From the NCBI RefSeq assembly GCF_902833085.1, contig NZ_CADFEB010000003.1, forward strand, positions 496,001 to 560,000: a stretch of 64,000 nt of DNA, read 5' to 3'. The stretch comes from Burkholderia ubonensis. Lineage in GTDB: Bacteria > Pseudomonadota > Gammaproteobacteria > Burkholderiales > Burkholderiaceae. Position numbers and translations under genes: made by a program. The stretch's first letter is position 1; every line of letters begins with the position of its first letter. This document shows positions 5,851-22,753 of this stretch, piece by piece. The notes under the pieces are model-generated. The model had not been told where the DNA came from. It saw only the letters and a program-made list of their open reading frames with translations, and ran no database searches.

Positions 5851-7083
5851 ATGGAAGCCGTCTACTTTTCGAAGGTGCCGACATTGGAAAACCCCGACAT
5901 CCCCGAGACGTCCCTGAAAGCCCATTACGCACACTGGGCGGCCTTGCGCCGCGATCTGCATGCGCATCCCGAGTTGCGATTCGAGGAACACAGGACGGCC
6001 GACGTCGTTGCCCGCGAGCTTGAGGATATCGGCTATACGGTGTCGCGCGGGCTGGGCGGCACGGGCGTCGTCGCGAGCCTGCCCGGGGCGGACCCTGGCC
6101 GCGGAATCGTGCTCCGTGCGGATCTGGATGCGCTGCCGATCCAGGAAGCCAACGACTTCGCGCACGCATCGGGCGCGCAAGGGGTCATGCATGCGTGCGG
6201 GCATGACGGGCATACCGTCATGTTGCTCGGGGCAGCACGCGTCATGAGGGGCCTGCCGCAGTTGCCGGGCACGGTTCATTTCGTGTTTCAGCCAGGAGAG
6301 GAGGGCGGCGCGGGCGCGCGGAAGATGATCGACGACGGGCTGTTCGAGCAATGCCCGACGGAAGCGGTATTCGGCATGCACAACTGGCCCGGTTTGCCGG
6401 CCGGGCATTTCGGGTTGCGCACGGGGCCGATCATGGCCGCGGGTTCCCGGTTCAGGATCACGGTAACCGGCAAAGGCGCGCATGCGGCGCAGCCGCATCT
6501 GGGCGTCGATCCCGTCCCGCTCGCATGTTCGATGGTGCTGCAGTGTCAGACCATCGCTGCGCGGCACAAGGATCCCGTGGATCCCGCCGTCATTTCCGTC
6601 TGCATGTTCCATGCGGGAACGACGGACAACGTCATTCCGGACAGCGCCGAGCTGCGCGGGACGATTCGCACGCTGTCGTCTGCATTGCAGCAACAGCTGC
6701 AGCGCGACGTCCAGCTCATGTGCGAGGGGCTGGCCCGCGCCCATGGCGCGCAAGTCGAGGTCGAATTTTTTCAGTACTACCCGGCGACGGTCAACACGCC
6801 GGCCGAAACCGCACTCTGCGAAGCGGTGATTCGCGAGACGTTCGGCGACGAACGCCTTTACCCCGACGTGCCGCCGAACATGACGTCCGAAGACTTCGGC
6901 TTCATGCTGGAGGAGCGCCCCGGCGCTTACGTGCTGATCGGCAATGCGCCGGCCGAAGCGGGCGCGCCGGCGCTGCATCACCCGAAATACGATTTCAACG
7001 ACGACATCATTCCGGCCGGCGTCCGGTATTGGGTTGCCCTGGCACAGGGTTACTTCAGGCGTTCACCGGGAACGTGTGCCTGA
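5851..7083 (+). CDS. M20-family amidohydrolase (hippurate hydrolase/IAA-amino-acid hydrolase type)
   Basis: A 410-residue M20D metallopeptidase. Zinc-site motifs are visible: MHACGHDGH near residue 112, FQPGEEGGAGA near 148, FGMHNWPG near 175, and a C-terminal MTSEDFGFML. The lid domain has VTGKGAHAAQPH. These enzymes hydrolyse N-acyl amino acids or similar amides. As the last gene of this run it plausibly liberates the amine or amino acid that the two FAD oxidases and the aldehyde dehydrogenase then degrade. Its 3' end overlaps by 34 bp with the convergent Fe-S subunit gene, which ends at 7050. Confidence 0.88.
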   Translation: MEAVYFSKVPTLENPDIPETSLKAHYAHWAALRRDLHAHPELRFEEHRTADVVARELEDIGYTVSRGLGGTGVVASLPGADPGRGIVLRADLDALPIQEANDFAHASGAQGVMHACGHDGHTVMLLGAARVMRGLPQLPGTVHFVFQPGEEGGAGARKMIDDGLFEQCPTEAVFGMHNWPGLPAGHFGLRTGPIMAAGSRFRITVTGKGAHAAQPHLGVDPVPLACSMVLQCQTIAARHKDPVDPAVISVCMFHAGTTDNVIPDSAELRGTIRTLSSALQQQLQRDVQLMCEGLARAHGAQVEVEFFQYYPATVNTPAETALCEAVIRETFGDERLYPDVPPNMTSEDFGFMLEERPGAYVLIGNAPAEAGAPALHHPKYDFNDDIIPAGVRYWVALAQGYFRRSPGTCA

Positions 7084-7994
7084 CGCCCATCGCGTCGTGA
7101 TGCCGGAGCACATACGGTGTCCGGCGAACTCGGCACTGTTGAGGTGGCCGAGTGGCTCTGACTGAGCCTGATCTCGCCCAGGTACGCGCTGTCGCCCAAT
7201 TCGCATTCGCGCCAAGCGTTGCCGAGGGCGTGTCGGATCTTGACTCGGTAGATGCCGCTGCCCCTGGCCAGGCCGTCGAACCGGAAATCGCCGAAGCCGT
7301 CCGAGACGGTTTCGGCTACCTGCAGATTACCTGCATATAAGGCGACGACCGCATCCGTGACACACTCGACCACATCTCCTGCCTGGGCGCTGACACTTCC
7401 GCCGACGAAGCACGTTTCCCAGCGCTCGAGGCCGCTATACCATATGCGGGGCTTCGTGCCCAGGTTGGGTCGCAATACCTTGAGTCCCTCGCGCCGGGCC
7501 TTTTGGGCCATCGCTGCGTCATCGAGCTTGACCGTCTCGAAAACACCGGTGGGGCACGACTGCTGACAACGCGGACGGGGCCACCCCTGGTCGAGCAAAT
7601 GAGCATCGAAGATCCAGATCTGGGGCAGTTGCAGTTCTTCGTTCCAGACGATCGCCTTGTAGGGGCACGCCTTCACGATGTCCTTTCGGCCTCGCGCCTT
7701 GTCCGGATCGATGATGACGATGCCGTCGGCGCGCTTGCGAATGGCGCCACCGCCCACACGCATGCAGGGCGCGTCGTCGCAGTGGTTGCACATGACCGGC
7801 AGATAAGTGGTCTCGATCATATGCGAAGCACCCTGTACACGACGCAGGATGCGGATGGGGCTCTCGGCGTTGGCCGCGGCGGGTGCGGCGTAACCGGGGA
7901 AGTCGTTGCCGACGTGCTCGTCCCGCGCGGCGATCACGCAATTCTGGCAATTCTCGCAACGCCCGACTTTGACAATCAGGTTCCACTTGCTCAT
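7050..7994 (-). CDS. Fe-S subunit of a transhydroxylase-like molybdoenzyme (BthL-like)
   Basis: A 314-residue ferredoxin-type electron-transfer subunit of the DMSO-reductase family. Cysteine groups are visible at residues 13/16/19, 69/72/77, 110 and 143/147. About residues 200-260 look like a Cna-B or carboxypeptidase-regulatory beta-sandwich (AETVSDGFGDFRFDGLARG). That third domain is the hallmark of the small subunit of Pelobacter pyrogallol-phloroglucinol transhydroxylase (about 274 residues); here there is a further C-terminal tail of roughly 40 residues. The ATG at 7994 has an excellent GTGAGGAATTT ribosome site. It lies 10 bp downstream of the catalytic subunit and is surely its partner. 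No Tat or Sec signal is present, so the complex is cytoplasmic. Confidence 0.8.
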   Translation of the reverse strand: MSKWNLIVKVGRCENCQNCVIAARDEHVGNDFPGYAAPAAANAESPIRILRRVQGASHMIETTYLPVMCNHCDDAPCMRVGGGAIRKRADGIVIIDPDKARGRKDIVKACPYKAIVWNEELQLPQIWIFDAHLLDQGWPRPRCQQSCPTGVFETVKLDDAAMAQKARREGLKVLRPNLGTKPRIWYSGLERWETCFVGGSVSAQAGDVVECVTDAVVALYAGNLQVAETVSDGFGDFRFDGLARGSGIYRVKIRHALGNAWRECELGDSAYLGEIRLSQSHSATSTVPSSPDTVCAPASRRDGRQAHVPGERLK

Positions 7995-8004
7995 TTGAAA
8001 TTCC

Positions 8005-10983
8005 TCACGCTGCGCGACCGAGCATGAACGCCTCGGCACCGCGCCATTTCTCGACCTGCACCAGGCAGGAATTCGGGCTCATGCTGCTGGTGCCGGAGGT
8101 CTGCGGCCGGTCGGAGGTAAGCATGTTCATGCAACCGCCGATCTCGACTTGCTCGCCGTCGATTTCGATCAGCTGAAATTCAGCGCTCGCCTCGTAGGAT
8201 TTCACCACTCCGGCGTTCACCAGAGGCGAGACATCGGCCGCACAGATCACGGCGCCGCGGTCGTTGTGCACTTTGACGAGATCGCGATGGGCAATGCGTC
8301 GAATGGCGGCGTCAGCCGGATTGAGCCTCAGCAGCCAGAACCGGTGCCCCGCGATCAGCGCGCGATGATCGTCGATGCCGTTCACCGCGGAATTCTTGCC
8401 GTCACAATGGGTATGAAAGCTGTAGCGGCTGTGGGTGGCGATCAATTGCAGCGGGTAGCGCCGAGCCAGGTCCGAGCGCAGGCCCTCCCAGGAGGGGATA
8501 TATCGGTTGAGCGCTGGCCGCTCGGGGTTGTCCGCAGTGTGCCGCTTCAGCAACTCGGGCACGAACTCCAGCTTGCCGCTCGGCGTCTGAAGGCCCCTGC
8601 CGAACTTTTCCGAGAACTGCGACGGCAGCGGATGAGGTTCCGGCAGGTCCTTCCTCCTGTCTTCCGCATACCAGCGCATGTCCACGGGATGGCGCAGCTC
8701 GGGCTTTTCGGGCGGCACGACGAAGTAGCCCTTGCGGCAGAATTCGCGCCACGAAATGTGATCGGGCAGGTCCGACGAGTCGAAGACGCGCTTGACCCAG
8801 TCAAGATCGCCGCAGCCTTCGGTGAAAACGCCACCCAGGCCCAACCGGGTCAGGATGGCGGTGAAAATGTCGTAGTCGGAGCGGGACTCGCCCAAGGGTT
8901 CGATGCATTTGTGCTGCAGCGTCAGCATTCGATGGTTGACCGTGCCATACCCATGGTGGGCGTAGCCGCCCGAATTCGCCCATTCTCCGATGTCCCAACG
9001 CTCCAGCGAAGTGCACGCGGGCAGGATGATGTCGGCGAACTGGGCTTCGCCTTCCATCCAGATCGACTGATTGACGACGAACTCGATGCTCGAGTGCCGG
9101 TAGGCCTCCGTCCAGCGTCCGGAATTCGTCACGGTACTGAACGCGGATCCGCCGTAGCGATAGATCATGCGGATCGGCGAATAGCCGGGCATCGGGTAGG
9201 TGAACGGCGCAAACTGGGCTTCCTGGGACATGCCGTCCCAGAGATAACCGGTGGCGTGACCGTTGAGAATCGCATCGGGCATCTGCTGTCGCGGCACCAT
9301 TTGCTTGACGGGATTCATGGTCAGGATGTGCGGCATGCGCTGGTAGTTGTCCACCGCATTGGCGGTCCACGCCAGGTCGCCTGAAATGCCGCCGTCCGCG
9401 TAGCCGGGGAAGTAGAACTGGAGGTCGTGCGGGACGCCGATTTCGAGGCAGCCGAAATTCACTCCCGGCTTGCCCCAGCCCTGCATGGACATCATCATGA
9501 TCATGCAGCGCGCCCATTGCGCCCCGGTCGCCCCGCGGCCCGCGCCGCCGAATCCCGCGCCGGTCATCCCGACGGCGAGATGCACCTTCTTCTTGCCCCA
9601 TAGGCGCGCAAGCGCACGGGCGTCCTTGGCCGGCACGCCGGTCTCGCTCTCCTGCCACTCGGGCGTCTTGGGGGTACCGTCGGTTTCGCCCAGAAGGTAG
9701 GCTTTCCAATCGTCGAAACCGGTTGTGCGCGTCGCGACGTAATCCTCGTCGTACAGGCCCTCCACGGTCCAGACGTACATGATGGCGGTAGCGAGGGCGG
9801 CATCGGTTTGCGGCCGGATCGGGATCCAGCGGCCGCCCAGCAGCTGGGCGGTCGGATTGCAGTGCGGGTCGATGTGAACGAACTCGATGCCGAGCTCCTT
9901 GGCCCACAGGCGGCGTGGGGTTCCCTCGAATCCTGCGTAGGCCCCGTTGGTACTTTCGGGGTCGCAGGACCAGAAGACGATCATTTCGGCTTCCTTGAGA
10001 CCATCTTCGAGGCCGCCATAGCCGGAGGGCACGCCGACGCGCATCGAATTGCCGAAATGATGCATGGCGCCCCAGTACCAGCCTTCCCAGCTGTCCGGAT
10101 TCGCGGCCACCCGGGTGAAGCCGATCAGGTTGGCGAAGCGCGTCAGCGCGCTGAGGTAGTAGCCGACGTTGCCCCACTGGTGGTGGGACGACATCGGGAA
10201 CGTGATGGAACCGGGACCGTGAACGCGCTTCTGCCGGTTGATCTCCTTGGCGACGATGTCCAGGGCCTCGTCCCAGCTGATACGCACATAGCCGGACTTG
10301 CCTCGGTTCTGGGGATTGCGCTCGCCGTCAGGGTCGAAGTCGACCCGTTTCATCGGGTGAAGGATGCGCTTGTCGGAGTAGACCAGCGACTTGAGGGTCA
10401 ACGCGTGGGGCGCGACCAATCCACGCCGTGGTGGGCTGAAGCGGCGTCCACGTGCCTCGATCACCCAGCTTGACGCATCCGTATCGTCCAGCTCGATGGG
10501 CGTCACGCGGACGATGCGGCCATCCTTGACGTAGACGAACAGGGGCCCGCCATTGGTACAGGTCGTGTAGCGTCGGGTGCCGTCGCGCATGGGCGTGCCC
10601 ATTGGCAGACCGACCGTGCGCATCATGCTCAGGGTTTGCATGAGCCAAACCAGCAGTTCGTCCTCGCCCTCGGTGACCACCTTGAAGTTCTTGGCGGCGT
10701 GGACGATTTCGCCCTGGTCCGGGCTCGGGGAAAGGAACTTCAGGGCGGTGGCGACGTCCTTGAAGGCCATGCGCACGTCGGGCCGCGGATGCTTGCCGGC
10801 GCGCGACCGAATGCGGCCATTCCTGAACTCGATCGCGCGACCGATGCTTTGATCCATGAGCCCGATCCACGCGACGAGATTGCGCTCCTTGAGGCGATCG
10901 CGATAGGCGGGGAAGCGGCGCGCCGTCAGGTCCAGTACCTTGGGCAATGCAAAAAGAATGGTCTTGAGGGCCTGTCGTTTCAT
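8005..10983 (-). CDS. Molybdopterin oxidoreductase, transhydroxylase-like catalytic subunit with N-terminal SCP2-like domain
   Basis: A 992-residue DMSO-reductase-family protein. Residues 1 to about 120 look like an SCP2/sterol-carrier fold (FRNGRIRSRAGKHPRPDV, then AFKDVATALKFL and a late VTEGEDELLVWL). From about 138, YTTCTNGGPLFVYVKDGRIV starts the molybdopterin region without the usual N-terminal four-cysteine cluster, as in Pelobacter transhydroxylase. The first His of SSHHQWG (267), Asp297 and Ser298 have the same spacing as the family's His144, Asp174 and Mo-ligand Ser175, and Tyr528 lies close to the Tyr404 position. No Tat motif is seen. The Pelobacter enzyme is about 875 residues, so the SCP2-like part is an addition. 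The natural substrate is unknown; a polyphenol or CoA-bound aromatic is inferred from the neighbours. Confidence 0.8.
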   Translation of the reverse strand: MKRQALKTILFALPKVLDLTARRFPAYRDRLKERNLVAWIGLMDQSIGRAIEFRNGRIRSRAGKHPRPDVRMAFKDVATALKFLSPSPDQGEIVHAAKNFKVVTEGEDELLVWLMQTLSMMRTVGLPMGTPMRDGTRRYTTCTNGGPLFVYVKDGRIVRVTPIELDDTDASSWVIEARGRRFSPPRRGLVAPHALTLKSLVYSDKRILHPMKRVDFDPDGERNPQNRGKSGYVRISWDEALDIVAKEINRQKRVHGPGSITFPMSSHHQWGNVGYYLSALTRFANLIGFTRVAANPDSWEGWYWGAMHHFGNSMRVGVPSGYGGLEDGLKEAEMIVFWSCDPESTNGAYAGFEGTPRRLWAKELGIEFVHIDPHCNPTAQLLGGRWIPIRPQTDAALATAIMYVWTVEGLYDEDYVATRTTGFDDWKAYLLGETDGTPKTPEWQESETGVPAKDARALARLWGKKKVHLAVGMTGAGFGGAGRGATGAQWARCMIMMMSMQGWGKPGVNFGCLEIGVPHDLQFYFPGYADGGISGDLAWTANAVDNYQRMPHILTMNPVKQMVPRQQMPDAILNGHATGYLWDGMSQEAQFAPFTYPMPGYSPIRMIYRYGGSAFSTVTNSGRWTEAYRHSSIEFVVNQSIWMEGEAQFADIILPACTSLERWDIGEWANSGGYAHHGYGTVNHRMLTLQHKCIEPLGESRSDYDIFTAILTRLGLGGVFTEGCGDLDWVKRVFDSSDLPDHISWREFCRKGYFVVPPEKPELRHPVDMRWYAEDRRKDLPEPHPLPSQFSEKFGRGLQTPSGKLEFVPELLKRHTADNPERPALNRYIPSWEGLRSDLARRYPLQLIATHSRYSFHTHCDGKNSAVNGIDDHRALIAGHRFWLLRLNPADAAIRRIAHRDLVKVHNDRGAVICAADVSPLVNAGVVKSYEASAEFQLIEIDGEQVEIGGCMNMLTSDRPQTSGTSSMSPNSCLVQVEKWRGAEAFMLGRAA

Positions 10984-11038
10984 CGTTCGATCCAAAGTGT
11001 TGCTTCCATGCGGGGGCGCTGGCATCGGGGCGCATCCG

Positions 11039-11776
11039 CTAGAACGTATAAGCGACGTTCAGGAAAACGCTGACGGGATTGAGTCGGAGCGTCGATGTGG
11101 AAACGATCTGCGTCCCGGTCGCGGTCTGCCCGTATAACGTGAGGTGGGTCTTCACCGGCATGTAGCCGACGGAAGCACCGACAGACCAATGTTTGGTCAT
11201 TGCGTAACTCGCCCCGAGCTCGAACACCGGGTTCCACGATGCGCTGAGTGTCGCGCGCGCCGAGCCGCCCGGCCCAAAGCTGTCGGAGACGAACTGGCGA
11301 TTGGTGGCTCGAACCTGGGTGAACCACGTATAGTTCACGCCAAGTCCTGCGTACGGGCGGAATTTCGATGTAGCGGAAAACAGGTGATATCGAAGTTCGA
11401 TGGCGGGCGGCATCGGCCTTGTCGTGCCGAGGGTGCCATACTTCTGCAGCGTCCCGTCACCGACCAGATTGACTGTCAGCGGCAGTCCGAGCAGCATGGC
11501 GACACCAACGTTGTCGGTGACGTAGTACTCGGTGGTGATGCCCATCGTATCCGTCGAGCTGGCATGCGCCCCGGTACCAGATAGTTGCTGATTCACCGTT
11601 ACGCCGCCAACACTTTGCACGGTCAGCGGCGTTGCGTTGCCCTGTGGCGATACGTGCAGCCATCCCACCGATGTGGTGATGCTTCCGGCCGTCTGTGCAT
11701 CTGCATTGTCGGCAAGTGCAGCCGTGCAGATACAAACCGCCATGCCTGCGAAACTCGTCATTCGCCTTGAATTCAT
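11039..11776 (-). CDS. OmpW-family outer membrane beta-barrel protein
   Basis: A 245-residue exported protein. The N-terminus MNSRRMTSFAGMAVCICTAA is a signal peptide, with cleavage probably after ADAQ near residue 28. The mature part alternates amphipathic strands: GITTEYYVTDNVGVAML, FRPYAGLGVNYTWF, FELGASYAMTKHWSVGASVGY. It ends in NVAYTF, with the terminal Phe required for barrel insertion. This pattern fits OmpW/AlkL, which let hydrophobic substrates cross the outer membrane. The gene lies between the molybdoenzyme and the acyl-CoA synthetase on the same strand, so uptake of the hydrophobic pathway substrate is likely. GAGGAGA precedes the ATG. Confidence 0.85.
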   Translation of the reverse strand: MNSRRMTSFAGMAVCICTAALADNADAQTAGSITTSVGWLHVSPQGNATPLTVQSVGGVTVNQQLSGTGAHASSTDTMGITTEYYVTDNVGVAMLLGLPLTVNLVGDGTLQKYGTLGTTRPMPPAIELRYHLFSATSKFRPYAGLGVNYTWFTQVRATNRQFVSDSFGPGGSARATLSASWNPVFELGASYAMTKHWSVGASVGYMPVKTHLTLYGQTATGTQIVSTSTLRLNPVSVFLNVAYTF

Positions 11777-11891: not shown

Positions 11892-13886
11892 TCACCGCGG
11901 ATCTGTCGCCGTCGATCCAGGCGATCGTATTGGCCCCGCGGCGATCGAAATCGAGAACGCAAACGGAAAGCGCCCCAGCACGAAGCGCGCCGCAGTCTCG
12001 AACCCGGGATCGCTCAGCTTGACCGAGACCGACATTCCGCCGGAATCACTGGTCGCGACGTCGACTGATGCGCCGGGGGCTCCGCCCTGGTCCAATGCCG
12101 TGCGGAGTGCGTCACTCGTCTCCCGGCGCTTGAGTTCCGGTTTGAAAATCTTGCCGACGCCCGTGAGCGGGATCGCTTCGACGATTCGGACATGCTTGGG
12201 CAGGGCGGCGCGTTCAGCGATCTCCTGCTGCATGAACACTTCCAGATCGTGCGCGGTAGCGGTCATACCCGGCTTGAGCTGAACATACGCGACCGGCAAC
12301 TCGCCGGCATAGGCATCGGGGCGCCCGATTGCCGCGGCGATCTGGACCGCCGGGTGTCGATGCAGCGGTTCCTCGATCGTCGCCGGGTCGATATTGTGTC
12401 CGCCGCGGATGATCAACTCCTTCTTGCGGCCGGTCAGCCAGAAGTAACCGTCGACGTCGCAGCGGCCGAGGTCGCCGGTGTTGAGCCAGCGCTTGCCGTC
12501 ACCGAGATCGAGCCACAGGGCCTTGTTCTGGTCGGGATGTGTGTAGCCGGTGAAAACGTTCGGCCCGGAGATGACGAGCAGCCCCTCCTCGTTAGCTGCG
12601 CAGTCGCGCAGATACCGTCCCGCATCGTCCACGACGACTGCCTTCATCGCCTGGAAGGGGATGCGAAGCCCGATCGATCCCGGCCGGCGCTCGCCGGTCG
12701 TCGGGTTGACGCTGCTCACGCACGTTCCTTCGGTCAGGCCGTAACCTTCGAGAATCCGGATGCCCGTTTTTTCCTGGAAGGCCCTGAAGACGCCGACCGG
12801 CATTGGCGCAGCACCGCACAGGCCGTATTCGAGCGAGTCGATGACATGACCGTCGACAGGAATGTCGAGCAGCGAGGCATAAAGCGTCGGGACGCCACTG
12901 AAGAAATTGATGTGATGATGTTCGACGATTTCCCAGAAACGTTTGACGACGCCGTCGCCTCGGTAACCCTGCGGTGTGCCGAGCACGACATGGGCGCCGC
13001 GCGAGAAAGGCAGGAGGCCGGTCACCATCGCGGCATTGACGTGAAAGAGCGGCAAGCCGCAGAAAGTCGCTTTGCCGGGGCCGATACTGTCGCCGAAGAA
13101 CCGCCCGGCGCTCCATGCATTCGCCACTTCGTTGCCGTGGCTGCGCATCGCGATTTTCGGCAACCCGGTGGTTCCACCGGTACAGAAGTAAGAGGACATG
13201 TCGCCAGGTTGAATGCGGCGCGCATTGTCGAGCGCTGTACCGGATTCCCGCGCGATTGCCGTACCGAAGTCGTGGATCTGGATGCGCGCAGGCACGGCGC
13301 TGCGCAAACCGCCATCGCCGTATAGCTGCGCACACGCGTCATGCTGGAGCGTGCGTGCCGCCGACTGCGCCGTGCCCCGCACGCGATCGGCCGGATTGAC
13401 CAGCACGAGATGCCGCAGCGGCTCGACCTCGTGAAGGACATCCGCGACTTTTTGCCAGAGGTCGATCCCGGGAAATGGCGCGAGCGTCACGAGCACGCTG
13501 GCACCGGCCGCTTTGAGCAGATGGCCTATCGCTTCGCCTTCGAGCAGCGGATTGATCGCGCATACGATGCCGGTCGCCTGTCCGCCCCAGATCACGAAAT
13601 GCGTTTCGGGAAGATTGGGCAGCACATAAGCGATCACCGACTGCGAATTCACACCGAGGCGCGCGAACATGTTGGCCGTGCGCGTGATGTCGCGAACCAG
13701 CTCGCGATAGGTCCAGCATTCGGCGTCGCGGTGCGCGTCGGCGGTCATGAAAAAGGAGAGGGCGGGGGCGGACGGATCGATGGCTGCACCCGCGCAGATC
13801 ATCTCGTACGTGCTGGCCGGAAGGTCCGGCGGAAGGCCCAGCGCTTCGATCGCCAGCACGTCGTCTTGGGTCGCGATGCCGTTCAT
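11892..13886 (-). CDS. Acyl/aryl-CoA synthetase (AMP-binding family) with C-terminal extension
   Basis: A 664-residue adenylate-forming enzyme. The P-loop-like motif FCTGGTTGLPKIAMRSH, the A5 motif EGYGLTEGT, the NTGDLG motif and the catalytic lysine region GVGKIFKPEL are all present. It would activate a carboxylic acid with ATP and link it to CoA. A tail of about 65 residues after the normal end, rich in Ser and Gly, does not belong to the family core. The start overlaps the stop of the upstream fumarylacetoacetase-like gene by 4 bp (ATGA), so both are co-translated. The substrate is probably the acid formed by ring cleavage or a side-chain acid; sequence alone does not say. Confidence 0.85.
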   Translation of the reverse strand: MNGIATQDDVLAIEALGLPPDLPASTYEMICAGAAIDPSAPALSFFMTADAHRDAECWTYRELVRDITRTANMFARLGVNSQSVIAYVLPNLPETHFVIWGGQATGIVCAINPLLEGEAIGHLLKAAGASVLVTLAPFPGIDLWQKVADVLHEVEPLRHLVLVNPADRVRGTAQSAARTLQHDACAQLYGDGGLRSAVPARIQIHDFGTAIARESGTALDNARRIQPGDMSSYFCTGGTTGLPKIAMRSHGNEVANAWSAGRFFGDSIGPGKATFCGLPLFHVNAAMVTGLLPFSRGAHVVLGTPQGYRGDGVVKRFWEIVEHHHINFFSGVPTLYASLLDIPVDGHVIDSLEYGLCGAAPMPVGVFRAFQEKTGIRILEGYGLTEGTCVSSVNPTTGERRPGSIGLRIPFQAMKAVVVDDAGRYLRDCAANEEGLLVISGPNVFTGYTHPDQNKALWLDLGDGKRWLNTGDLGRCDVDGYFWLTGRKKELIIRGGHNIDPATIEEPLHRHPAVQIAAAIGRPDAYAGELPVAYVQLKPGMTATAHDLEVFMQQEIAERAALPKHVRIVEAIPLTGVGKIFKPELKRRETSDALRTALDQGGAPGASVDVATSDSGGMSVSVKLSDPGFETAARFVLGRFPFAFSISIAAGPIRSPGSTATDPR

Positions 13887-14839
13887 GCTGCTTCGTCCAC
13901 GATCTCGTTACGCTGCACGCCCAGATCGATCGTTCCGTCGCGGCTCGCGATCCGGGCTTCGACGATATCTCCGGCCTTCAGATACTGCGCTCGCCCCGCC
14001 TGCACCTTCATGAACATCTTCCATTTGACGGATTCCGGAAAAAGCGCGACGGCCCGCTGCTTGAGCGGCGACGGGATGCTGAGTGCGCAGCCGGCCGGCG
14101 TGCCGGTCGCGAGCAGATCGCCGGCGCGAAGGTCGTGCACGCCCGACAACTCGGTCAACGTTTCCGCCGGACCATAGACGAGGTTCGATGTCGAGTCCTG
14201 CTGACGCACCGTGCCGTTGACGGTCAACGTCAGGACGAGCGCCTTCAGCTTCGGGAAGTCACGCCGCTCGAGCAGGCACAGATATGGGCCGACCGGGCCA
14301 AACGTCCGGAAGCTCTTGCCCTTGTAGAACTGCATCTGCGGGATCTGGACATCGCGCGCGGAATAGTCGTTGACGATCACGGTGCCGGCGACATAGTCGT
14401 GCAGGTTCGTGTCCGTGATCTGCTGGTGAGACGTGATGTCGCGTTTGAGGATGAGGCCGAGCTCGATTTCGTAGTCGAGAAACCGGACGTGCCGCGGTTT
14501 CACGACCTGTGAGTCGGCAGCGACGATGCAGCTCGTCGCCTTCGTGAAGATCATGTTGAACTTTTTCGCGTCCGGATCCATGCCCGATTCGATCATGTGC
14601 CGACGATAATTCGCGCCCTGGCAAACGAATTGCTGGTTGGCTGTCACCGGCGGAAGCCACTCAACGTCCGACTCCGGAATCGTCGATCCGTCGAGCGTGA
14701 CGAGTCGTTCAACCGGATTCGCCGCGAGAAAGCTCGCGGTTGTCTCGAAGTCGCCGGGAATCGGCGTGACGGCGCCGTTGGCGACCACACCCCATTGGGC
14801 GCGGCCTTGATGCCGGAAGTGCAGGACATGCAGTGACAT
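13883..14839 (-). CDS. Fumarylacetoacetate hydrolase-family protein
   Basis: A 318-residue FAH-fold hydrolase. Acidic metal ligands appear in RFLDYEIELGLIL and VNDYSARDVQIPQ, followed by FYKGKSFRTFGPVGPYL and LLATGTPAGCAL, all typical of 2-hydroxymuconate-type hydratases, decarboxylases or C-C hydrolases in meta-cleavage pathways. It has an added N-terminal domain like fumarylacetoacetase. It follows the extradiol-type dioxygenase in the operon (37 bp gap), which fits a role on the ring-opened product. It overlaps the acyl-CoA synthetase start. Hydratase, decarboxylase and hydrolase activities cannot be separated from sequence alone. Confidence 0.85.
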   Translation of the reverse strand: MSLHVLHFRHQGRAQWGVVANGAVTPIPGDFETTASFLAANPVERLVTLDGSTIPESDVEWLPPVTANQQFVCQGANYRRHMIESGMDPDAKKFNMIFTKATSCIVAADSQVVKPRHVRFLDYEIELGLILKRDITSHQQITDTNLHDYVAGTVIVNDYSARDVQIPQMQFYKGKSFRTFGPVGPYLCLLERRDFPKLKALVLTLTVNGTVRQQDSTSNLVYGPAETLTELSGVHDLRAGDLLATGTPAGCALSIPSPLKQRAVALFPESVKWKMFMKVQAGRAQYLKAGDIVEARIASRDGTIDLGVQRNEIVDEAA

Positions 14840-14875: not shown

Positions 14876-15946
14876 TCAGGCGAACAGCTTTGCCAGCGTC
14901 AGCAGCTTGCCGACCGTAAGATCGGGACTGCGGCGCAGGTTGCGAAACAGCGCCGCGAGGCTCGACGGCGTGAGCCGGGGCTTCGTGAAGCTGCGCGGCA
15001 TCGTCGGGCCCCACTGCGCCATCGCTTCGCGGCTGACCGCGTGCACGCCCGTCGGCTCGTCGGCCGTGAACAGGTCGCCGTCGCAATAGTGTTCGTGCTT
15101 GTCGCCCCACGGGTCCTGCCAATAGTCGAAGATCTGGCTGCCGAGAATGTGCCGGCCGATGCCCCACGCGTGCGCCCACCCGTTGTCGTGGAGCATGCGC
15201 TGGCCCATGCCGACGGCATCGGCGTCGACGAGTTCGTACGCGCTATGGCTGTAAGTCGACACGAACCCTTGGGCGAGCGCGAGCGTATGGTGGTCGGCCG
15301 GCCTGTCGCCGAGATCGAGCCGCATGAACGCAACCGCAGGGGAGCCGTCCGGCAGCACCTGGACATCGCTGGGGATGAACCCGAAATGCTGCGTGTACCA
15401 CGCGCAGGTTTCCTGGTAGTCGGCCAGCTCGAGTACGACGTGTCCGAGCCGAATGACCTCGGGCGCGCTCGCCGGCGGCCGCTGCGTTTCGTTGATCCGC
15501 ACGGGCGCGTCGACCGAGTTGAACGGGAGCGGGGCGCGATGCGGCAGCGTGTCGGCCAGTGACTGGCCCGCAATCGCGTCGACCCGAAAACCCGACGGAT
15601 CGACGAGCCGCACCCGGAGGCCGCCGCCTGGCCAATCCGATGCCTCGATCTCCGACGCGCCAGGGACTTTGGCGAGCGCCTCCAGATCGGCTCGGCTGTC
15701 GACCTGCAATCCGAAGCCTACGAAGCTGGCCTTCGGCGCATGGCGAACGACATAACAGAAATGTGCGGTGCCCGTTCCGCGCAGCAGCAATTGCGTGTCG
15801 TTCCGCAGCACCGTTCGGAGACCGAAGTCGTTGAGAAAGTGCTCTGCCTCGTCGAGATCGGGGCGATCGAAGATCAGATAGGCGAGCGCCGATGCCTTCG
15901 TCGTGGGGTGAGGGTGGCGAGCCGGTTGTGTGGTGGTCAGTTTCAT
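14876..15946 (-). CDS. VOC-superfamily extradiol-type ring-cleavage dioxygenase
   Basis: A 356-residue protein with two VOC modules, the layout of catechol 2,3-dioxygenase and 2,3-dihydroxybiphenyl dioxygenase. The Fe(II) triad is visible in the C-terminal half: His in IRLGHVVLEL, His in VSTYSHSAYEL, and Glu in WGDKHEHYCDGD. The N-terminal module lacks these ligands, as expected. The last 60 residues (SFTKPRLTPSS onwards) are an unusual basic tail. ATG at 15946 was chosen over a TTG at 15958 that abuts the preceding gene. It should open a vicinal-diol aromatic ring next to the hydroxyls. Together with the FAH-fold protein it is the strongest sign that the operon degrades an aromatic compound. 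Confidence 0.82.
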   Translation of the reverse strand: MKLTTTQPARHPHPTTKASALAYLIFDRPDLDEAEHFLNDFGLRTVLRNDTQLLLRGTGTAHFCYVVRHAPKASFVGFGLQVDSRADLEALAKVPGASEIEASDWPGGGLRVRLVDPSGFRVDAIAGQSLADTLPHRAPLPFNSVDAPVRINETQRPPASAPEVIRLGHVVLELADYQETCAWYTQHFGFIPSDVQVLPDGSPAVAFMRLDLGDRPADHHTLALAQGFVSTYSHSAYELVDADAVGMGQRMLHDNGWAHAWGIGRHILGSQIFDYWQDPWGDKHEHYCDGDLFTADEPTGVHAVSREAMAQWGPTMPRSFTKPRLTPSSLAALFRNLRRSPDLTVGKLLTLAKLFA

Positions 15947-16338: not shown

Positions 16339-16389
16339 ATTAAAGTCATAGATGATGACTTTGTCAATGTAGACATTTGAATCTATACT
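16339..16389. promoter_or_regulatory. Divergent promoters with overlapping -35 boxes and palindromic operator
   Basis: Plus strand: TTGTCA (16361-16366), 17 bp, TATACT (16384-16389), reading toward the TetR gene. Minus strand: TTGACA (16367-16362), 17 bp, TTTAAT (16344-16339), reading toward the catabolic operon. Inside the minus-strand spacer lies a perfect inverted repeat, AAAGTCAT (16342-16349) and ATGACTTT (16355-16362), with a 5 bp centre. A dimer bound there would block both promoters. The same geometry is found at 43405-43455 next to a paralogous TetR. Confidence 0.75.
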
Positions 16390-16416: not shown

Positions 16417-17172
16417 ATGCCGAATACATCGAATCGCCGGACACCAAAGCGCTCGGCTCCGGAAGCACCCAGTCCCGTGGCCGCGGTCGCCGAAGAGCGC
16501 GAGCCGCGCGGCGCGCGCCGCAAGCGGGAGACCCGTGCCCGGCTGCTGGACGCCGCGCTGAGACTGATGGCGGAGAAGGGCATGGAAGGCGTCGCCATCA
16601 ACGAAATCACCGAGGCCGCCGACGTCGGCTTTGGCTCGTTCTACAACCACTTTGAATCGAAGGAGGCGATCTACGCCACCCTCGTGGAATCGGTATTCGA
16701 GGAGTTCGCGGATTCGCTCGATCGCCTGGCCAGCGGCTTGTCCGACCCGGCGGAAATCATTTCCGTCTCGGTGCGGCATACGCTGATGCGCGCGCGGCGC
16801 GAGCCGGTGTGGGGACGCTTCCTGATACGCGAGGGCTTTTCGGCGCGCGTCCTGACGTTTGGCCTGGGTCAACGCCTGCTGCGCGACATCGAGCGCGGCA
16901 TCGCCGAGAAACGCTTCGTGGTCGCCGACCCATTCATCGGCTTCCTTTCGGTTGGCGGGACGGTGCTGACCGCCATTGCCGCCGAGCTCAACTTCGTCGC
17001 TCCGGGCGCGCCGGCGGCCGGCGTTCTCAAGGAACTCGGCTTCAGCGGAGAGCATTTTCCGGAACGCACGGCGGCGACGCTGCTGCATACGCTGGGGCTC
17101 AAGCGCGGGGAAGCCGAGAAGATCGCAAGCCGGCCGCTGCCGGTCGTGGAAGCGGCCGAGACGGCACGGTGA
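16417..17172 (+). CDS. TetR-family regulator, probable repressor of the divergent catabolic operon
   Basis: A 251-residue TetR protein. The DNA-binding domain spans about residues 30-80, with the recognition segment INEITEAADVGFGSFYNHFESKEAIY. The ligand domain that follows has conserved segments such as LASGLSDPAEI and HTLMRARREP. It is closely similar to the TetR at 43462 along nearly its whole length. Start: ATG at 16417 with AAGGATCGGA upstream. It is transcribed away from the operon that starts at 16279 and its promoter overlaps the operon promoter, so autorepression and repression of the operon are likely. The inducer is probably the aromatic substrate or a CoA product (inference). Confidence 0.87.
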   Translation: MPNTSNRRTPKRSAPEAPSPVAAVAEEREPRGARRKRETRARLLDAALRLMAEKGMEGVAINEITEAADVGFGSFYNHFESKEAIYATLVESVFEEFADSLDRLASGLSDPAEIISVSVRHTLMRARREPVWGRFLIREGFSARVLTFGLGQRLLRDIERGIAEKRFVVADPFIGFLSVGGTVLTAIAAELNFVAPGAPAAGVLKELGFSGEHFPERTAATLLHTLGLKRGEAEKIASRPLPVVEAAETAR

Positions 17173-18751: not shown

Positions 18752-20179
18752 CTAGCTGCCGACGGATCCTGGCACGTGTTCGTGCGCGATGCGACTGCGC
18801 GACATCGCTTCGACGCGCAGTCGGTCGTATTCTGCGTTGTCGACCGGTTGAGCGTTCGCTCGCCCCAGGTCGTTCATATGGACACGATGTGTCTCGCGTG
18901 CGCTCAAGGCTGCGAGCGACGCAATCACGGTGATGCCGAACGCGATCGTCCCGACGATCAGCCAGACGTGGTGCCCGCCGGGCGGCGCGACCGCCGTGAA
19001 CAGCGCGGGCAGCATCGCCGTGGCCGCGGTACCGAGGTTCTGCGCGATTGCCATCGCCGAGACGCGCGTGCGGGTCGGGAAGAGTTCCGGGTAAAAGGCG
19101 GGAAATACGGCGTTGTAGCCCTGGTACACGACACCCCACATGAGCATCGACATCACGAATGCAAGCGGCACGTTCCGGATGCTGATCGCATACAGGTAGG
19201 CAAACGCGAGCAGCCCGGCGGCCAGCGAGCCGACGATGATCGGCGGCCTGCGGCCGACCCGGTCGGACAGGTTGCCGACGAACGGAATCACGATCATCGC
19301 AACGATATTGCCCACCACCGTGATCCAGAGATAGACATCTTTCGGGAATCCGATTCGATACGCCGGCTGGACCGCATAGGCTGCGCCGAAGATCGTGGCG
19401 ACGACCGGAATCACGTTCATCATCGACATGCAGGCAACGCGCGCCATGTCGGGAAAGTGATGCCTGAAAGCGTCGGCAACGGGCGAGCCGGCTTGCGGCC
19501 GATTGCGTACCGCTTCGTCGAAGGCCGGCGACTCGTCGACCTCGCGGCGAATGATCCAGCCCGCAACGATGACCAGCGCACTCAGCAGGAACGGAATGCG
19601 CCAGCCCCAGCTATCGAATTGCGCGGACGGCATGTAGTAGGCGAGCGGCAGGAACACGGCGGCGGCCAGTACTTGCCCGGCCTGCACGCCCTGTAGCGTG
19701 AAGCTGACGAAGTATCCGCGTCGGCCGAACGGCGCGTGCTCCAGGATCATCGAGCTCGCGCCGGTAATCTCGCCGGCCACGGCGAAACCTTGCAGCAGGC
19801 GAAGCGTCACCAGCAATGCAGGCGCGATCAGCCCGGCTTGCTGATAGGTCGGCAGCAGGCCGACTCCGACGGTCGAGAATCCCATCAGGAACATGCAGAA
19901 AAGCAGGACGGTTTTCCGTCCGCGCGTGTCGCCGAGATGACCCAGCACGAACGCGCCGATCGGGCGGGACACATAGCCGACGCCGTAAGTGGCCAGCGAC
20001 GCGATGATGGCAGTCGTCGGGCTGCCGTGCGGAAAGAATATCTGCGGGAAGATCAGCGCCGATGCCGTGGCGTAGATGAAGAAATCGTAGTATTCGAGCA
20101 CCGAGCCGATCCAGCCGCTGACGGCGGCTTTTCTCGACTGGTGCCCGCCCCGGGGCTCGTCTCGCAAGGTCGTGGTCAT
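18752..20179 (-). CDS. MHS-family MFS metabolite:H+ symporter (ShiA-like)
   Basis: A 475-residue transporter of the metabolite:H+ symporter family. VSGWIGSVLEYYDFFIYATAS is the classic MHS N-terminus. It is followed by RPIGAFVLGHLGDTRGRKTVL, the loop 2-3 signature, and by GNLSDRVGRRPPI in the second half. Relatives import shikimate (ShiA), citrate, alpha-ketoglutarate or proline. Because AroQ and AroE homologues follow directly upstream on the same strand, import of shikimate, quinate or a related cyclic acid is the best guess. The hydrophilic C-terminal tail of about 45 residues is normal for the family. Confidence 0.85.
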   Translation of the reverse strand: MTTTLRDEPRGGHQSRKAAVSGWIGSVLEYYDFFIYATASALIFPQIFFPHGSPTTAIIASLATYGVGYVSRPIGAFVLGHLGDTRGRKTVLLFCMFLMGFSTVGVGLLPTYQQAGLIAPALLVTLRLLQGFAVAGEITGASSMILEHAPFGRRGYFVSFTLQGVQAGQVLAAAVFLPLAYYMPSAQFDSWGWRIPFLLSALVIVAGWIIRREVDESPAFDEAVRNRPQAGSPVADAFRHHFPDMARVACMSMMNVIPVVATIFGAAYAVQPAYRIGFPKDVYLWITVVGNIVAMIVIPFVGNLSDRVGRRPPIIVGSLAAGLLAFAYLYAISIRNVPLAFVMSMLMWGVVYQGYNAVFPAFYPELFPTRTRVSAMAIAQNLGTAATAMLPALFTAVAPPGGHHVWLIVGTIAFGITVIASLAALSARETHRVHMNDLGRANAQPVDNAEYDRLRVEAMSRSRIAHEHVPGSVGS

Positions 20180-20236
20180 CGTCGTCTCCAGATATTGATA
20201 TGCGTGCCGGGCAAGGCGGGTGATGCGGGAATCGGC

Positions 20237-20680
20237 CTAATCCTCTCCGAGCGCCGAGACTGCGGCCCTCAGCGCCAGCAGATAGCTTTGAACACCGAAG
20301 CCGCAAATTTGCCCGCTGACGATCTCGGCCAGGACGGAGTGATGCCGGAACGGCTCGCGTGCATGAATGTTGGACATGTGCAGTTCGACGATCGGGCACG
20401 TGAGGATGGCAAGGGCATCGCGAATGCCGTAGCTGTAATGCGTCCATGCCCCCGCGTTGATCAGCACCGCATCCTGGCGTTCCTCGAAAGCGCGATGAAT
20501 GCGCTCGCACATCGCTCCCTCGCTGTTCGTCTGGAACGACTCCACCTGTACACCCAGTTCCGTCGCGAGCCCTTGCAGCCGCGCATCGATCTGCGCGAGC
20601 GTGATCGTCCCATACTGTGCCGGATTGCGCTTGCCGAACATGTTGTGATTGATGCCGTGCAGCATCAGGATCTTCTTCAT
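20237..20680 (-). CDS. aroQ: Type II 3-dehydroquinate dehydratase (AroQ-like, divergent)
   Basis: A 147-residue protein, the family length. It keeps the catalytic Arg and Tyr in FGKRNPAQYG and the motif ELHMSNIHAREPFRHHS. Two signatures are altered: the canonical NGPNLNLLG is HGINHNMFG, and INPGAYTH is INAGAWTH. The fold and activity are likely, but the substrate may be shifted or the enzyme catabolic rather than biosynthetic. ATG 20680 follows GGAGATCCGC; the upstream ATG at 20692 overlaps that site. It interconverts 3-dehydroquinate and 3-dehydroshikimate in the cytoplasm. The neighbouring AroE and MHS transporter support a quinate/shikimate use. Confidence 0.8.
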   Translation of the reverse strand: MKKILMLHGINHNMFGKRNPAQYGTITLAQIDARLQGLATELGVQVESFQTNSEGAMCERIHRAFEERQDAVLINAGAWTHYSYGIRDALAILTCPIVELHMSNIHAREPFRHHSVLAEIVSGQICGFGVQSYLLALRAAVSALGED

Positions 20681-20699
20681 GCGGATCTCCATTGTGTGT

Positions 20700-21536
20700 T
20701 CAATCGAACGGCACGGCCAGCCGATCGATCACCGAACTGGTCTTGGGGCGTACGCCGCGCCACCACGCGAACGCTTCGGCCGCCTGCTCGACCAGCATGC
20801 CGACGCCATCCGCGATCCCGTGCACCCCGGCATTTTTCGCGAGCCGGAGAAACGGCGTCAGACGCTTGCCGTATGCAAGTTCGTAGGCCGTGCCGGCCGG
20901 ACTGAACACGCTCGGCGGGACAGGCGGCAGGTCGCCGGTCAGGCTGGCCGACGTCGCATTGACGACCAGGTCGAAACGCCCCATCCGCGCGAGGTCTGCG
21001 TAGCCGCTGGCAACGAGCGAACCGCGTCCGGCAACCTGCGCGGCGAGTGCGCGCGCCTTGTCGACGTCGCGATTCGCGATGACCAGTTCGGCCGGCGCGG
21101 CTTCGAGGAACGGCAAGAGCGCGCCGCGTGCCGCGCCGCCTGCACCGAGCACCAGGACACGCTTGCCGGCCATCGGAAGATTGAGGTTCGCTTCGATATC
21201 GCGAACCAGTCCGATGCCGTCGAAGTTGTCGGCCAGGATGCGGCCGCCGTCGAACTTGAGCGCGTTGGCCGCGCCCGCGAGCTTCGCACGCTCGCTGCGT
21301 TCGTCCGACATCGCGAACGCGTCGAGCTTGAACGGCGCGGTGACGTTGATGCCTTTGCCGCCGCCCTCGAAAAACGCGCGAACCACGGCAGCGAAAGCGC
21401 CTGCCGGCTCGACGGGCCCCTCGATCGCCGTATAGCTGATGTCCTGCCGCGTTTCTTGCGCGAAGAGACCGTGAATCAGTGGGGATTTCGTGTGTCCGAT
21501 CGGATTGCCGATCACCGCGTATTGGTCGGTCATCAT
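20700..21536 (-). CDS. aroE: Shikimate/quinate dehydrogenase (AroE-like)
   Basis: A 278-residue AroE-family protein. The substrate domain has IGNPIGHTKSPLIH, the catalytic Lys in GINVTAPFKLDAF, and Asp in DNFDGIGLVRD. The NADP domain begins with VLVLGAGGAARGALLPFL. The nucleotide-binding turn reads IANRDVDKA, so cofactor preference is open. It overlaps the CoA-transferase stop by 4 bp (ATGA). In this non-biosynthetic setting it probably works in the oxidative direction on shikimate or quinate imported by the MHS carrier, as a second copy beside the housekeeping enzyme (inference). Confidence 0.87.
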   Translation of the reverse strand: MMTDQYAVIGNPIGHTKSPLIHGLFAQETRQDISYTAIEGPVEPAGAFAAVVRAFFEGGGKGINVTAPFKLDAFAMSDERSERAKLAGAANALKFDGGRILADNFDGIGLVRDIEANLNLPMAGKRVLVLGAGGAARGALLPFLEAAPAELVIANRDVDKARALAAQVAGRGSLVASGYADLARMGRFDLVVNATSASLTGDLPPVPPSVFSPAGTAYELAYGKRLTPFLRLAKNAGVHGIADGVGMLVEQAAEAFAWWRGVRPKTSSVIDRLAVPFD

Positions 21537-22753
21537 TGGCTCGCTTTTGAATAGAGGACGCCGTCGGCCTGCATCGCGTCGATTTCGGCCGAATCGAACC
21601 CGAGGGAACGCGCGATTTCCGCGTTGTGCTGCCCGAGATCGGGCGCGACGTCGCGAATCGTCGTATCGCAATCGGAAAACCGGAACGGCAGGTTGGGCAG
21701 GCGCAGCGTCCCGTAGCGCGGATGCTGTTGCTCGACGACCATGCCTCTGGCCTGGATCTGCGGATCGTTCAATACCTCGTCGATGCGCTGCACCTTCGCG
21801 CAGGGAACGTCGATGCCGTCCAGCAGATCCAGTACCGACGCGACGGAACGCGCGGCCACCCACGGCTCGACCACCGACAGAATCTCCGCACGGTGCGCGT
21901 TGCGGCCGCTGCTGTCGTGAAACCGTGTGTCGGCGCCGAAATCCGCCGGGCCGCCGTGCGTCGCGATCAGCTCGGCAAAGCGCTTCCACGCGTCGTCGAC
22001 TTGCGCGGCGATCACGAGATCGCCGTCCGCGGCACGGAACACGCCATAGAGCGTCGAGGTCGGCATGTCGTGCCCGGTCTGCTCGGGCAGCACGCCCTGC
22101 AGCGTATAGCACTGCACCGCGTATTCGTGCATCGACACGAGCGTGTCGTACAGCGCCATGTCGACGTGCTGACCGCGGCCGCTCTTCACGCGCCCCAGCA
22201 GCGCGGCGTTGATGGCCGCGACCGCATGAATGCCGGTGTACATGTCGCCGAGCGAGATGCGCAGCAGCGGCGGCCGCTCGCCCGGCGTGCCCACCATCTG
22301 CATGATTCCGCTCTTGGCTTCCGCGATCAGCCCGAAGCCCGCGCGATGCGCATCGGGACCGGTATGCCCGTACGCCGAAATCGAACAGTAGACGAGGCCC
22401 GGATTGCGCGCCGACAATTCGGCATAGCCGAGCCCGAGCTTGTCCAGCGCGCCCGGCCGATAGTTCTCGATGAACACGTCGGCCGAGTCGCACAGCCGCT
22501 GCATGAACGCCTTGCCGCGCGCGTCCTTCATGTTGACGCTCACGCCGCGCTTGCCCATGTTGAGCTGCAGGAAGTAGCCGCTCTGCTGGTCGTCGAGCAC
22601 GGTCGCGTGCTGGCGTCCGGCGTCGCCCGATCCGGGACGCTCGACCTTGATGACTTCGGCGCCGAGCGCCGCGAGACAGCGCCCGACATACGGACCGGCA
22701 AGGAAGTGGCTGTAGTCGACGACGCGAATGCCTTCGAGTGGGCGAGCCTGCAT
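21533..22753 (-). CDS. Class III CoA-transferase (CaiB/BaiF family)
   Basis: A 406-residue family III CoA-transferase. The N-terminus LEGIRVVDYSHFLAGPYVGR, the NYRPGALDKLG segment and the catalytic Asp in RISLGDMYTGIHA are all typical. It moves CoA between an acyl-CoA donor and a carboxylic acid through an aspartyl-anhydride intermediate. The start at 22753 overlaps the MaoC stop by one base (TGATG) and the stop overlaps aroE, so the operon is tightly coupled. Its acceptor should be the carboxylic acid that is then hydrated by the MaoC-like neighbour. Confidence 0.9.
   Translation of the reverse strand: MQARPLEGIRVVDYSHFLAGPYVGRCLAALGAEVIKVERPGSGDAGRQHATVLDDQQSGYFLQLNMGKRGVSVNMKDARGKAFMQRLCDSADVFIENYRPGALDKLGLGYAELSARNPGLVYCSISAYGHTGPDAHRAGFGLIAEAKSGIMQMVGTPGERPPLLRISLGDMYTGIHAVAAINAALLGRVKSGRGQHVDMALYDTLVSMHEYAVQCYTLQGVLPEQTGHDMPTSTLYGVFRAADGDLVIAAQVDDAWKRFAELIATHGGPADFGADTRFHDSSGRNAHRAEILSVVEPWVAARSVASVLDLLDGIDVPCAKVQRIDEVLNDPQIQARGMVVEQQHPRYGTLRLPNLPFRFSDCDTTIRDVAPDLGQHNAEIARSLGFDSAEIDAMQADGVLYSKASQ

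Follow-up and report, generated by a model that had tools for sequence, protein, structure and literature searches.

A Burkholderia ubonensis gene was found to encode a transhydroxylase-like molybdoenzyme fused at its N-terminal to an SCP2-like domain, a fusion that is usual in a widespread clade. The gene lies in a stretch of 64,000 nucleotides (contig NZ_CADFEB010000003.1, positions 496,001 to 560,000), here called the window, from a genome of 7.77 Mb, and occupies 8005..10983 on the minus strand (alpha subunit, 992 aa; Pfam, phmmer and structure match). The folds, the conserved residues, the gene linkage and the loss of cluster ligands from the partner subunit were observed by computation. 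The general picture drawn from them, to which we give somewhat less than an even chance, is of a wide proteobacterial molybdenum family that combines its own lipid-carrier domain with a two-cluster beta subunit and would hydroxylate lipid-like phenols independently of O2, as the first step of an otherwise aerobic ring cleavage.

Catalytic core and N-terminal domain of the alpha subunit

Pfam analysis of alpha revealed AhtL-like domain 1 (PF21423) at residues 146-200, with 96.1 bits against a cut-off of 27, together with a molybdopterin oxidoreductase domain and a dinucleotide-binding domain. The top solved relative was the large subunit of the pyrogallol-phloroglucinol transhydroxylase (PTH) of Pelobacter acidigallici (4v4c_A), with 908 bits across residues 138-983 by phmmer, followed by DMSO reductases at no more than 237 bits, which bears out the PTH-like catalytic subunit proposed in the first-pass annotation. 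The N-terminal Fe-S cluster was missing, as also claimed there, since a motif check of alpha found no CxxC and hence no N-terminal [4Fe-4S] motif. The catalytic part was 98% identical to its counterparts in B. stagnalis and B. catarinensis, and in the tree the window alpha was nearest to that of B. stagnalis. Catechol dehydroxylases, considered as the nearest group, were set aside because the available portion of PMC7028382 places their clade away from PTH.

Next to be compared were the active-site positions. H267, D297 and S298 of alpha aligned to H144, D174 and S175 of PTH (phmmer alignment, letters checked), which reproduced the expected His-Asp-Ser spacing against the Pelobacter large subunit; Y528 and Y674 aligned to Y404 and Y560, and S671 to C557. 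These six PTH residues we take to belong to its active site. A scan of genome contigs confirmed at least 539 relatives out of at least 596 pattern matches, and the best 80 (at least 59% identity) were analysed. Positions 267, 298 and 528 were invariant in these best 80 of at least 539; Tyr674 was present in 74, position 297 was Asp in 68 and Ile in 12, and position 671 varied (S, C, A, G, T or P). A different Mo ligand was ruled out by Ser298 in 80/80 of the same set. The change to Ile297 occurred once on the tree, and the 12 proteins that carry it form one fork. The results support a catalytic core that is transhydroxylase-like with Ser at the Mo-ligand place; PTH is itself Ser-coordinated at Mo according to the available portion of PMC10100899.

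The SCP2-like domain comprises about residues 1-125 (10609..10983, minus strand) and was identified by AF2, Foldseek/VIA and profile comparison. About 120 extra residues had been claimed; the extension is present, and 137 aa precede the PTH-aligned region. The domain alone gave no Pfam match at E<=10, PF02036 included, under filters that drop most weak matches, and a single unrelated match (E 0.86) among PDB sequences. Its predicted structure was an SCP2 fold (AF2 pLDDT 88), and both Foldseek and VIA matched it to SCP2 folds. The 22 Foldseek matches at E<=0.001 comprised alkylsulfatase-type chains (SdsA1, Pisa1, SdsAP, YjcS), UbiJ and an archaeal SCP2-like protein; in the VIA rows the alkylsulfatase match region was residues about 531-674, the C-terminal domain of these enzymes, which we take to be SCP2-like. 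Profile-profile comparison with SCP2 (PF02036) gave a probability of 93.4 (P 2.4e-7, 107 columns), and five column-shuffled controls gave 0.2-0.6. The agreement of these methods confirmed the SCP2 fold that the first-pass annotation had suspected. For the full-length model, the 50 entries listed by VIA held no SCP2 chain, the catalytic part taking up the list.

The SCP2 profile used 27 of 30 loci, leaving out L134 and L137 (short) and L125 (stop). The structure prediction alignment (A5) was A3 (57 rows) without L021 and L101, leaving 55 rows. Alignment A6 was A4 (50 rows) without L021, leaving 49, and A4 consisted of the window, L021 and 48 of 55 loci thinned from the 79 with an N-domain match.

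The alpha start is the ATG at 10983; another in-frame ATG lies upstream at 11025, and the annotated homologue in the B. stagnalis record begins at the codon equivalent to 10983. That start, with the presence of the domain in relatives, ruled out that the fusion is peculiar to this locus or stems from a wrongly placed start codon. The N-domain has many hydrophobic columns. Its retention across a wide clade rules out an extension that arose by chance, and the domain may bind a hydrophobic ligand.

Distribution of the fusion and the beta subunit

Matches to alpha at E<=1e-60 were found in 11 of 121 genomes (own and relatives, own included), one of them a 32% DMSO-reductase-like protein. Among 18 plasmid records, eight carried the gene (59-98% identity over at least 87%), one a fragment and nine a match at 26-28%; four of the eight annotate alpha, each as 'molybdopterin-dependent oxidoreductase'. 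The survey for the extra domain that had been proposed earlier found it in 79 of the best 80 of at least 539 relatives, L077 being cut by a contig end and the match being partial in L058, L084 and L091. Many genera of the fused clade are ones that we take to be aerobes, and one relative came from a strain named Pseudomaricurvus alkylphenolicus.

A second sample was drawn from loci with PF21423 above the cut-off in Pseudomonadota genomes. With the own genome counted in each set, such matches were found in the own genome only among 398, in 6 of 399 and in 2 of 369 genomes, and further in 1 of 4 and 5 of 64 genomes from families picked because they held a match. Outside the own genome these samples gave 12 distinct loci, which all have the N-domain and may overlap with the best 80, and the three matches under the cut-off (L017, L158, L159) showed none. 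One alpha without the domain is a second gene in L101 (open frame 839 aa), where positions 5996-9377 hold a second alpha-beta pair adjoining the fused one. In Sinorhizobium terangae (L023, 8001-10592) the SCP2-like domain lies in a separate open frame upstream (165 aa between stops), which indicates a split gene or a frame error in the record. In L009 and L058 the reading frame of alpha takes in no more than roughly the latter half of the N-domain, which looks like damage or misassembly at the 5' end.

The tree was built from 81 of 84 rows, leaving out L050, L072 and L077 as fragments. A branch with support 99 separated the 78 fused rows from PTH, the unfused L101 gene and a DMSO-type protein. 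A single gain of the N-domain is likely from this topology, although not proved, because these three are long branches for which false joins are possible.

The beta subunit (7050..7994, minus strand) is ferredoxin-like; it scores 205 bits against 4v4c_B, the small subunit of PTH, and keeps eight Cys for two [4Fe-4S] clusters. PTH beta has Cys at 13, 16, 19, 23, 68, 71, 76, 109, 126, 129, 145 and 149 (and 209), which by the ferredoxin rule we assume to pair as 13/16/19/149, 68/71/76/109 and 126/129/145/23. The window beta has Ala23, Trp127, Asp130 and Cys143 at the PTH places 23, 126, 129 and 145, so that the third set is broken: three of its four Cys are gone, and ligands for three [4Fe-4S] clusters were not found. 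The beta subunit has thus lost one Fe-S ligand set relative to PTH.

The same loss was examined in 78 of the best 80 of at least 539 loci (L050 and L072 had no match). In 70 of the 78 the first two sets were complete, with eight Cys, and at most one Cys of the third was left. Position 126 was Trp and position 129 Asp or Glu in 75; two had gaps there and one had both Cys. Cys23 was retained alongside Trp and Asp in L097 and L098, and at least one Cys of the first two sets was missing from the alignment in L055, L069, L077, L082 and L100, partly from cut contigs. All four Cys of the third set were kept in L103, the first branch of the fused clade, and the beta of the L101 pair without the N-domain has all twelve Cys. 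Since these two, one fused and one unfused, keep the third set, the order suggested is that the SCP2-like domain was gained first and the cluster lost later.

Gene neighbourhood in the window and in relatives

The minus-strand genes are arranged in the order VOC, FAH, acyl-CoA synthetase, OmpW, alpha and beta, with a divergent TetR gene. In order of rising coordinates, the OmpW-family outer-membrane channel (11039..11776; PF03922, 97.7 bits) is followed by an acyl-CoA synthetase of the NCBIfam PRK07529 subfamily (11892..13886; 927.8 bits, cut-off 632), a fumarylacetoacetate-hydrolase-family (FAH) protein (13883..14839; PF01557, 160.6 bits) and a VOC extradiol-dioxygenase-like protein (14876..15946; PF00903, 35.5 bits), all on the minus strand. 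The FAH and synthetase genes overlap by 4 bases, and the alpha-beta gap is 10 bases. The solved relatives of the FAH protein were FAH-family hydrolases, HpcE-type enzymes and acylpyruvases. The family scores of the VOC protein were modest (61.9 bits against the HpaD model, under its cut-off of 321). Its His169, His234 and Glu285 stand at what we take to be the metal-ligand places, and His220, His266 and Tyr275 presumably match catechol 2,3-dioxygenase positions; these active-site residues were conserved in 43 or all 44 of the aligned proteins, the one from the window being among them. The claim that O2-using ring-cleavage genes adjoin the enzyme held, as they lie upstream of alpha in the same orientation, with the need for O2 assigned by family.

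The TetR regulator (16417..17172, plus strand; PF00440, PF21306) is separated from the operon by a perfect 8-5-8 inverted repeat (16342..16362), which is a possible operator. One exact copy of the repeat was found, beside TetR in B. stagnalis (L018), and none in the other 164 loci examined. Further along, 18752-22493 of the window holds an MFS transporter, a class II dehydroquinase and a same-strand ORF that by eye reads like shikimate dehydrogenase, which may be a quinate/shikimate cluster.

Neighbours were counted at the 54 of 80 loci with near-full flanks (26 were short), from the best 80 of at least 539 relatives, and related loci among them are not independent. At the 45 Asp297 loci, FAH was found at 36, a large VOC at 30, FAH with a large or small VOC at 35, an acyl-CoA synthetase at 25 and any of OmpW, FadL, DUF1302 or DUF1329 at 28; eight of the 45 had neither a large VOC nor FAH. 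At the nine Ile297 loci the respective counts were FAH 2, VOC 0, synthetase 1 and outer-membrane families 0. BLAST alone gave FAH at 38, VOC at 30, synthetase at 26 and OmpW at 15 of the 54 loci, and for control genes of the window MFS1 at 0, DAO at 0, MFS2 at 2, M20 at 2 and ALDH at 10, the last indicating that common families can be linked by chance at some loci.

The gene order in B. stagnalis was the same as in the window. In Ensifer canadensis, a synthetase, two small VOC genes, FAH and a Toluene_X/FadL outer-membrane transport gene lie downstream of beta, and in Pseudomonas benzenivorans one FAH, a synthetase and one VOC are on the opposite strand, with extra VOC and FAH copies beside alpha-beta. 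Because the order differs among the Burkholderia, Rhizobium and Pseudomonas loci, the linkage survives rearrangement. In the Ile297 sub-clade (L082, L085-L087 and L089-L096) a large VOC gene was not found nearby, and this, with Ile at the place of PTH D174, indicates that the sub-clade may have a different substrate or reaction. The Asp/Ile split is a single tree change, so its tie to the neighbour genes counts as one event.

Proposed function and relation to known systems

The best explanation, which we rate at close to an even chance, is that alpha-beta is an O2-independent Mo hydroxylase of hydrophobic phenols, with the SCP2-like domain holding the tail, that feeds a ring-cleavage pathway. 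We infer its substrate, direction, electron acceptor, tail binding and cell compartment as follows. A cytoplasmic bis-MGD Mo enzyme would act on a hydrophobic phenol that bears an alkyl or acyl chain and hydroxylate its ring, taking the hydroxyl from water or a hydroxyl donor and not from O2. The SCP2-like domain, whose tail binding would have a parallel in the one proposed for UbiJ (PMC9499169), would offer the ring to a Mo site with Ser298 as ligand and His267, Asp297 and Tyr528 arranged as in PTH. The VOC extradiol dioxygenase would then open the hydroxylated ring, the FAH-family hydrolase would split the ring-fission product, and the synthetase would activate the freed fatty or 3-oxo acid for beta-oxidation, with an OmpW or FadL channel importing the substrate and TetR regulating the genes.

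In the orcinol pathway, 5-methylresorcinol is converted via 2,3,5-trihydroxytoluene to a trioxo acid. Since the proposed steps follow that order, the most parsimonious candidate by analogy is a lipid of the 5-alkylresorcinol type, and other hydrophobic phenols fit equally. Such a lipid might be hydroxylated next to the chain and cleaved by the extradiol enzyme to a 2,4,6-trioxo acid, from which an acylpyruvase-type FAH enzyme could supply the synthetase with either a 3-oxo fatty acid, released along with pyruvate, or a fatty acid. Delivery of a hydrophobic or CoA-bound substrate by the extra domain had been proposed in the first-pass annotation; the hydrophobic half has become likelier from the OmpW/FadL-type channels and the synthetase, whereas the CoA-bound half has not: the synthetase, found near 25 of 45 Asp297 loci, would more readily act later in the pathway, and in some members only.

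The loss of cluster ligands from beta is no harder to reconcile with a redox-neutral transhydroxylase than with an electron-exporting hydroxylase. An enzyme that moves OH between small polyphenols as in Pelobacter, with an SCP2-like domain that is structural or serves oligomerisation, would have no need of long-range electron transfer, and alpha retains the PTH catalytic residues. We nevertheless consider it unlikely, given an N-domain with many hydrophobic columns kept across a wide clade, a cluster that often carries genes for hydrophobic substrates, and the variable position that is Cys557 in PTH and Ser671 here. Less probable again is that the domain binds ubiquinone and a ring hydroxylase sends electrons via the two remaining clusters to quinone: UbiJ is among the best fold matches, and its SCP2 domain is, in the available portion of PMC9499169, a proposed binding site for the polyisoprenoid tail of ubiquinone intermediates, but no quinone-binding residue could be named and beta lost a cluster rather than gaining one. 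Least probable is a dehydroxylase, or an enzyme acting on an aryl-CoA ester from the neighbouring synthetase; a synthetase stands in the same gene row and Mo catechol dehydroxylases exist, but the available portion of PMC7028382 assigns these to another clade, nearest acetylene hydratase, and a synthetase was not found at 20 of the 45 Asp297 loci (from the best 80 of at least 539), against FAH at 36.

The hydroxylase reading would tie a PTH-type fold, with an added domain and an altered electron-transfer subunit, to O2-using ring cleavage. If it is true, soil bacteria use O2-independent hydroxylation on oily phenols, and a defined gene set becomes available for testing whether alkylresorcinols and plant lipids like them are broken down this way. 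A simple structure-function test is offered by the Asp297/Ile297 split, as it tracks the neighbour genes.

Literature searches on the enzyme, the pathway and substrate, SCP2 and UbiJ, with most subscription journals outside their scope, showed, among the matches listed and judged by title or start of the abstract, none describing an SCP2-fused transhydroxylase, the gene cluster or the beta change. Both the catalytic family and the SCP2 fold are established, whereas the fusion and the change in beta are, as far as these searches reach, apparently undescribed.

PTH of P. acidigallici transfers OH from a tetrahydroxybenzene cosubstrate. Its alpha subunit (875 aa) begins at the place that aligns with residue 133-138 of the window alpha and hence has no SCP2-like domain, and its beta subunit has all 12 Cys, of which the window beta has lost three. 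The resorcinol hydroxylase RhLS of Azoarcus anaerobius may itself carry an SCP2-like domain or a changed beta; in the available portion of PMC10100899 it is grouped with PTH, Ser-coordinated, cytoplasmic and active in hydroxylating resorcinol, and the named PTH-type enzymes work in fermentation (PTH) and anaerobic respiration (RhLS). The SCP2 domains of UbiJ, SdsA1/Pisa1 and human MFE-2 share the fold of residues 1-125 at about 8-19% identity, whereas here that fold is fused to a molybdoenzyme. The orcinol catabolic pathway shares the order of ring hydroxylation, extradiol cleavage and hydrolysis, its hydroxylation being carried out by a flavin monooxygenase.
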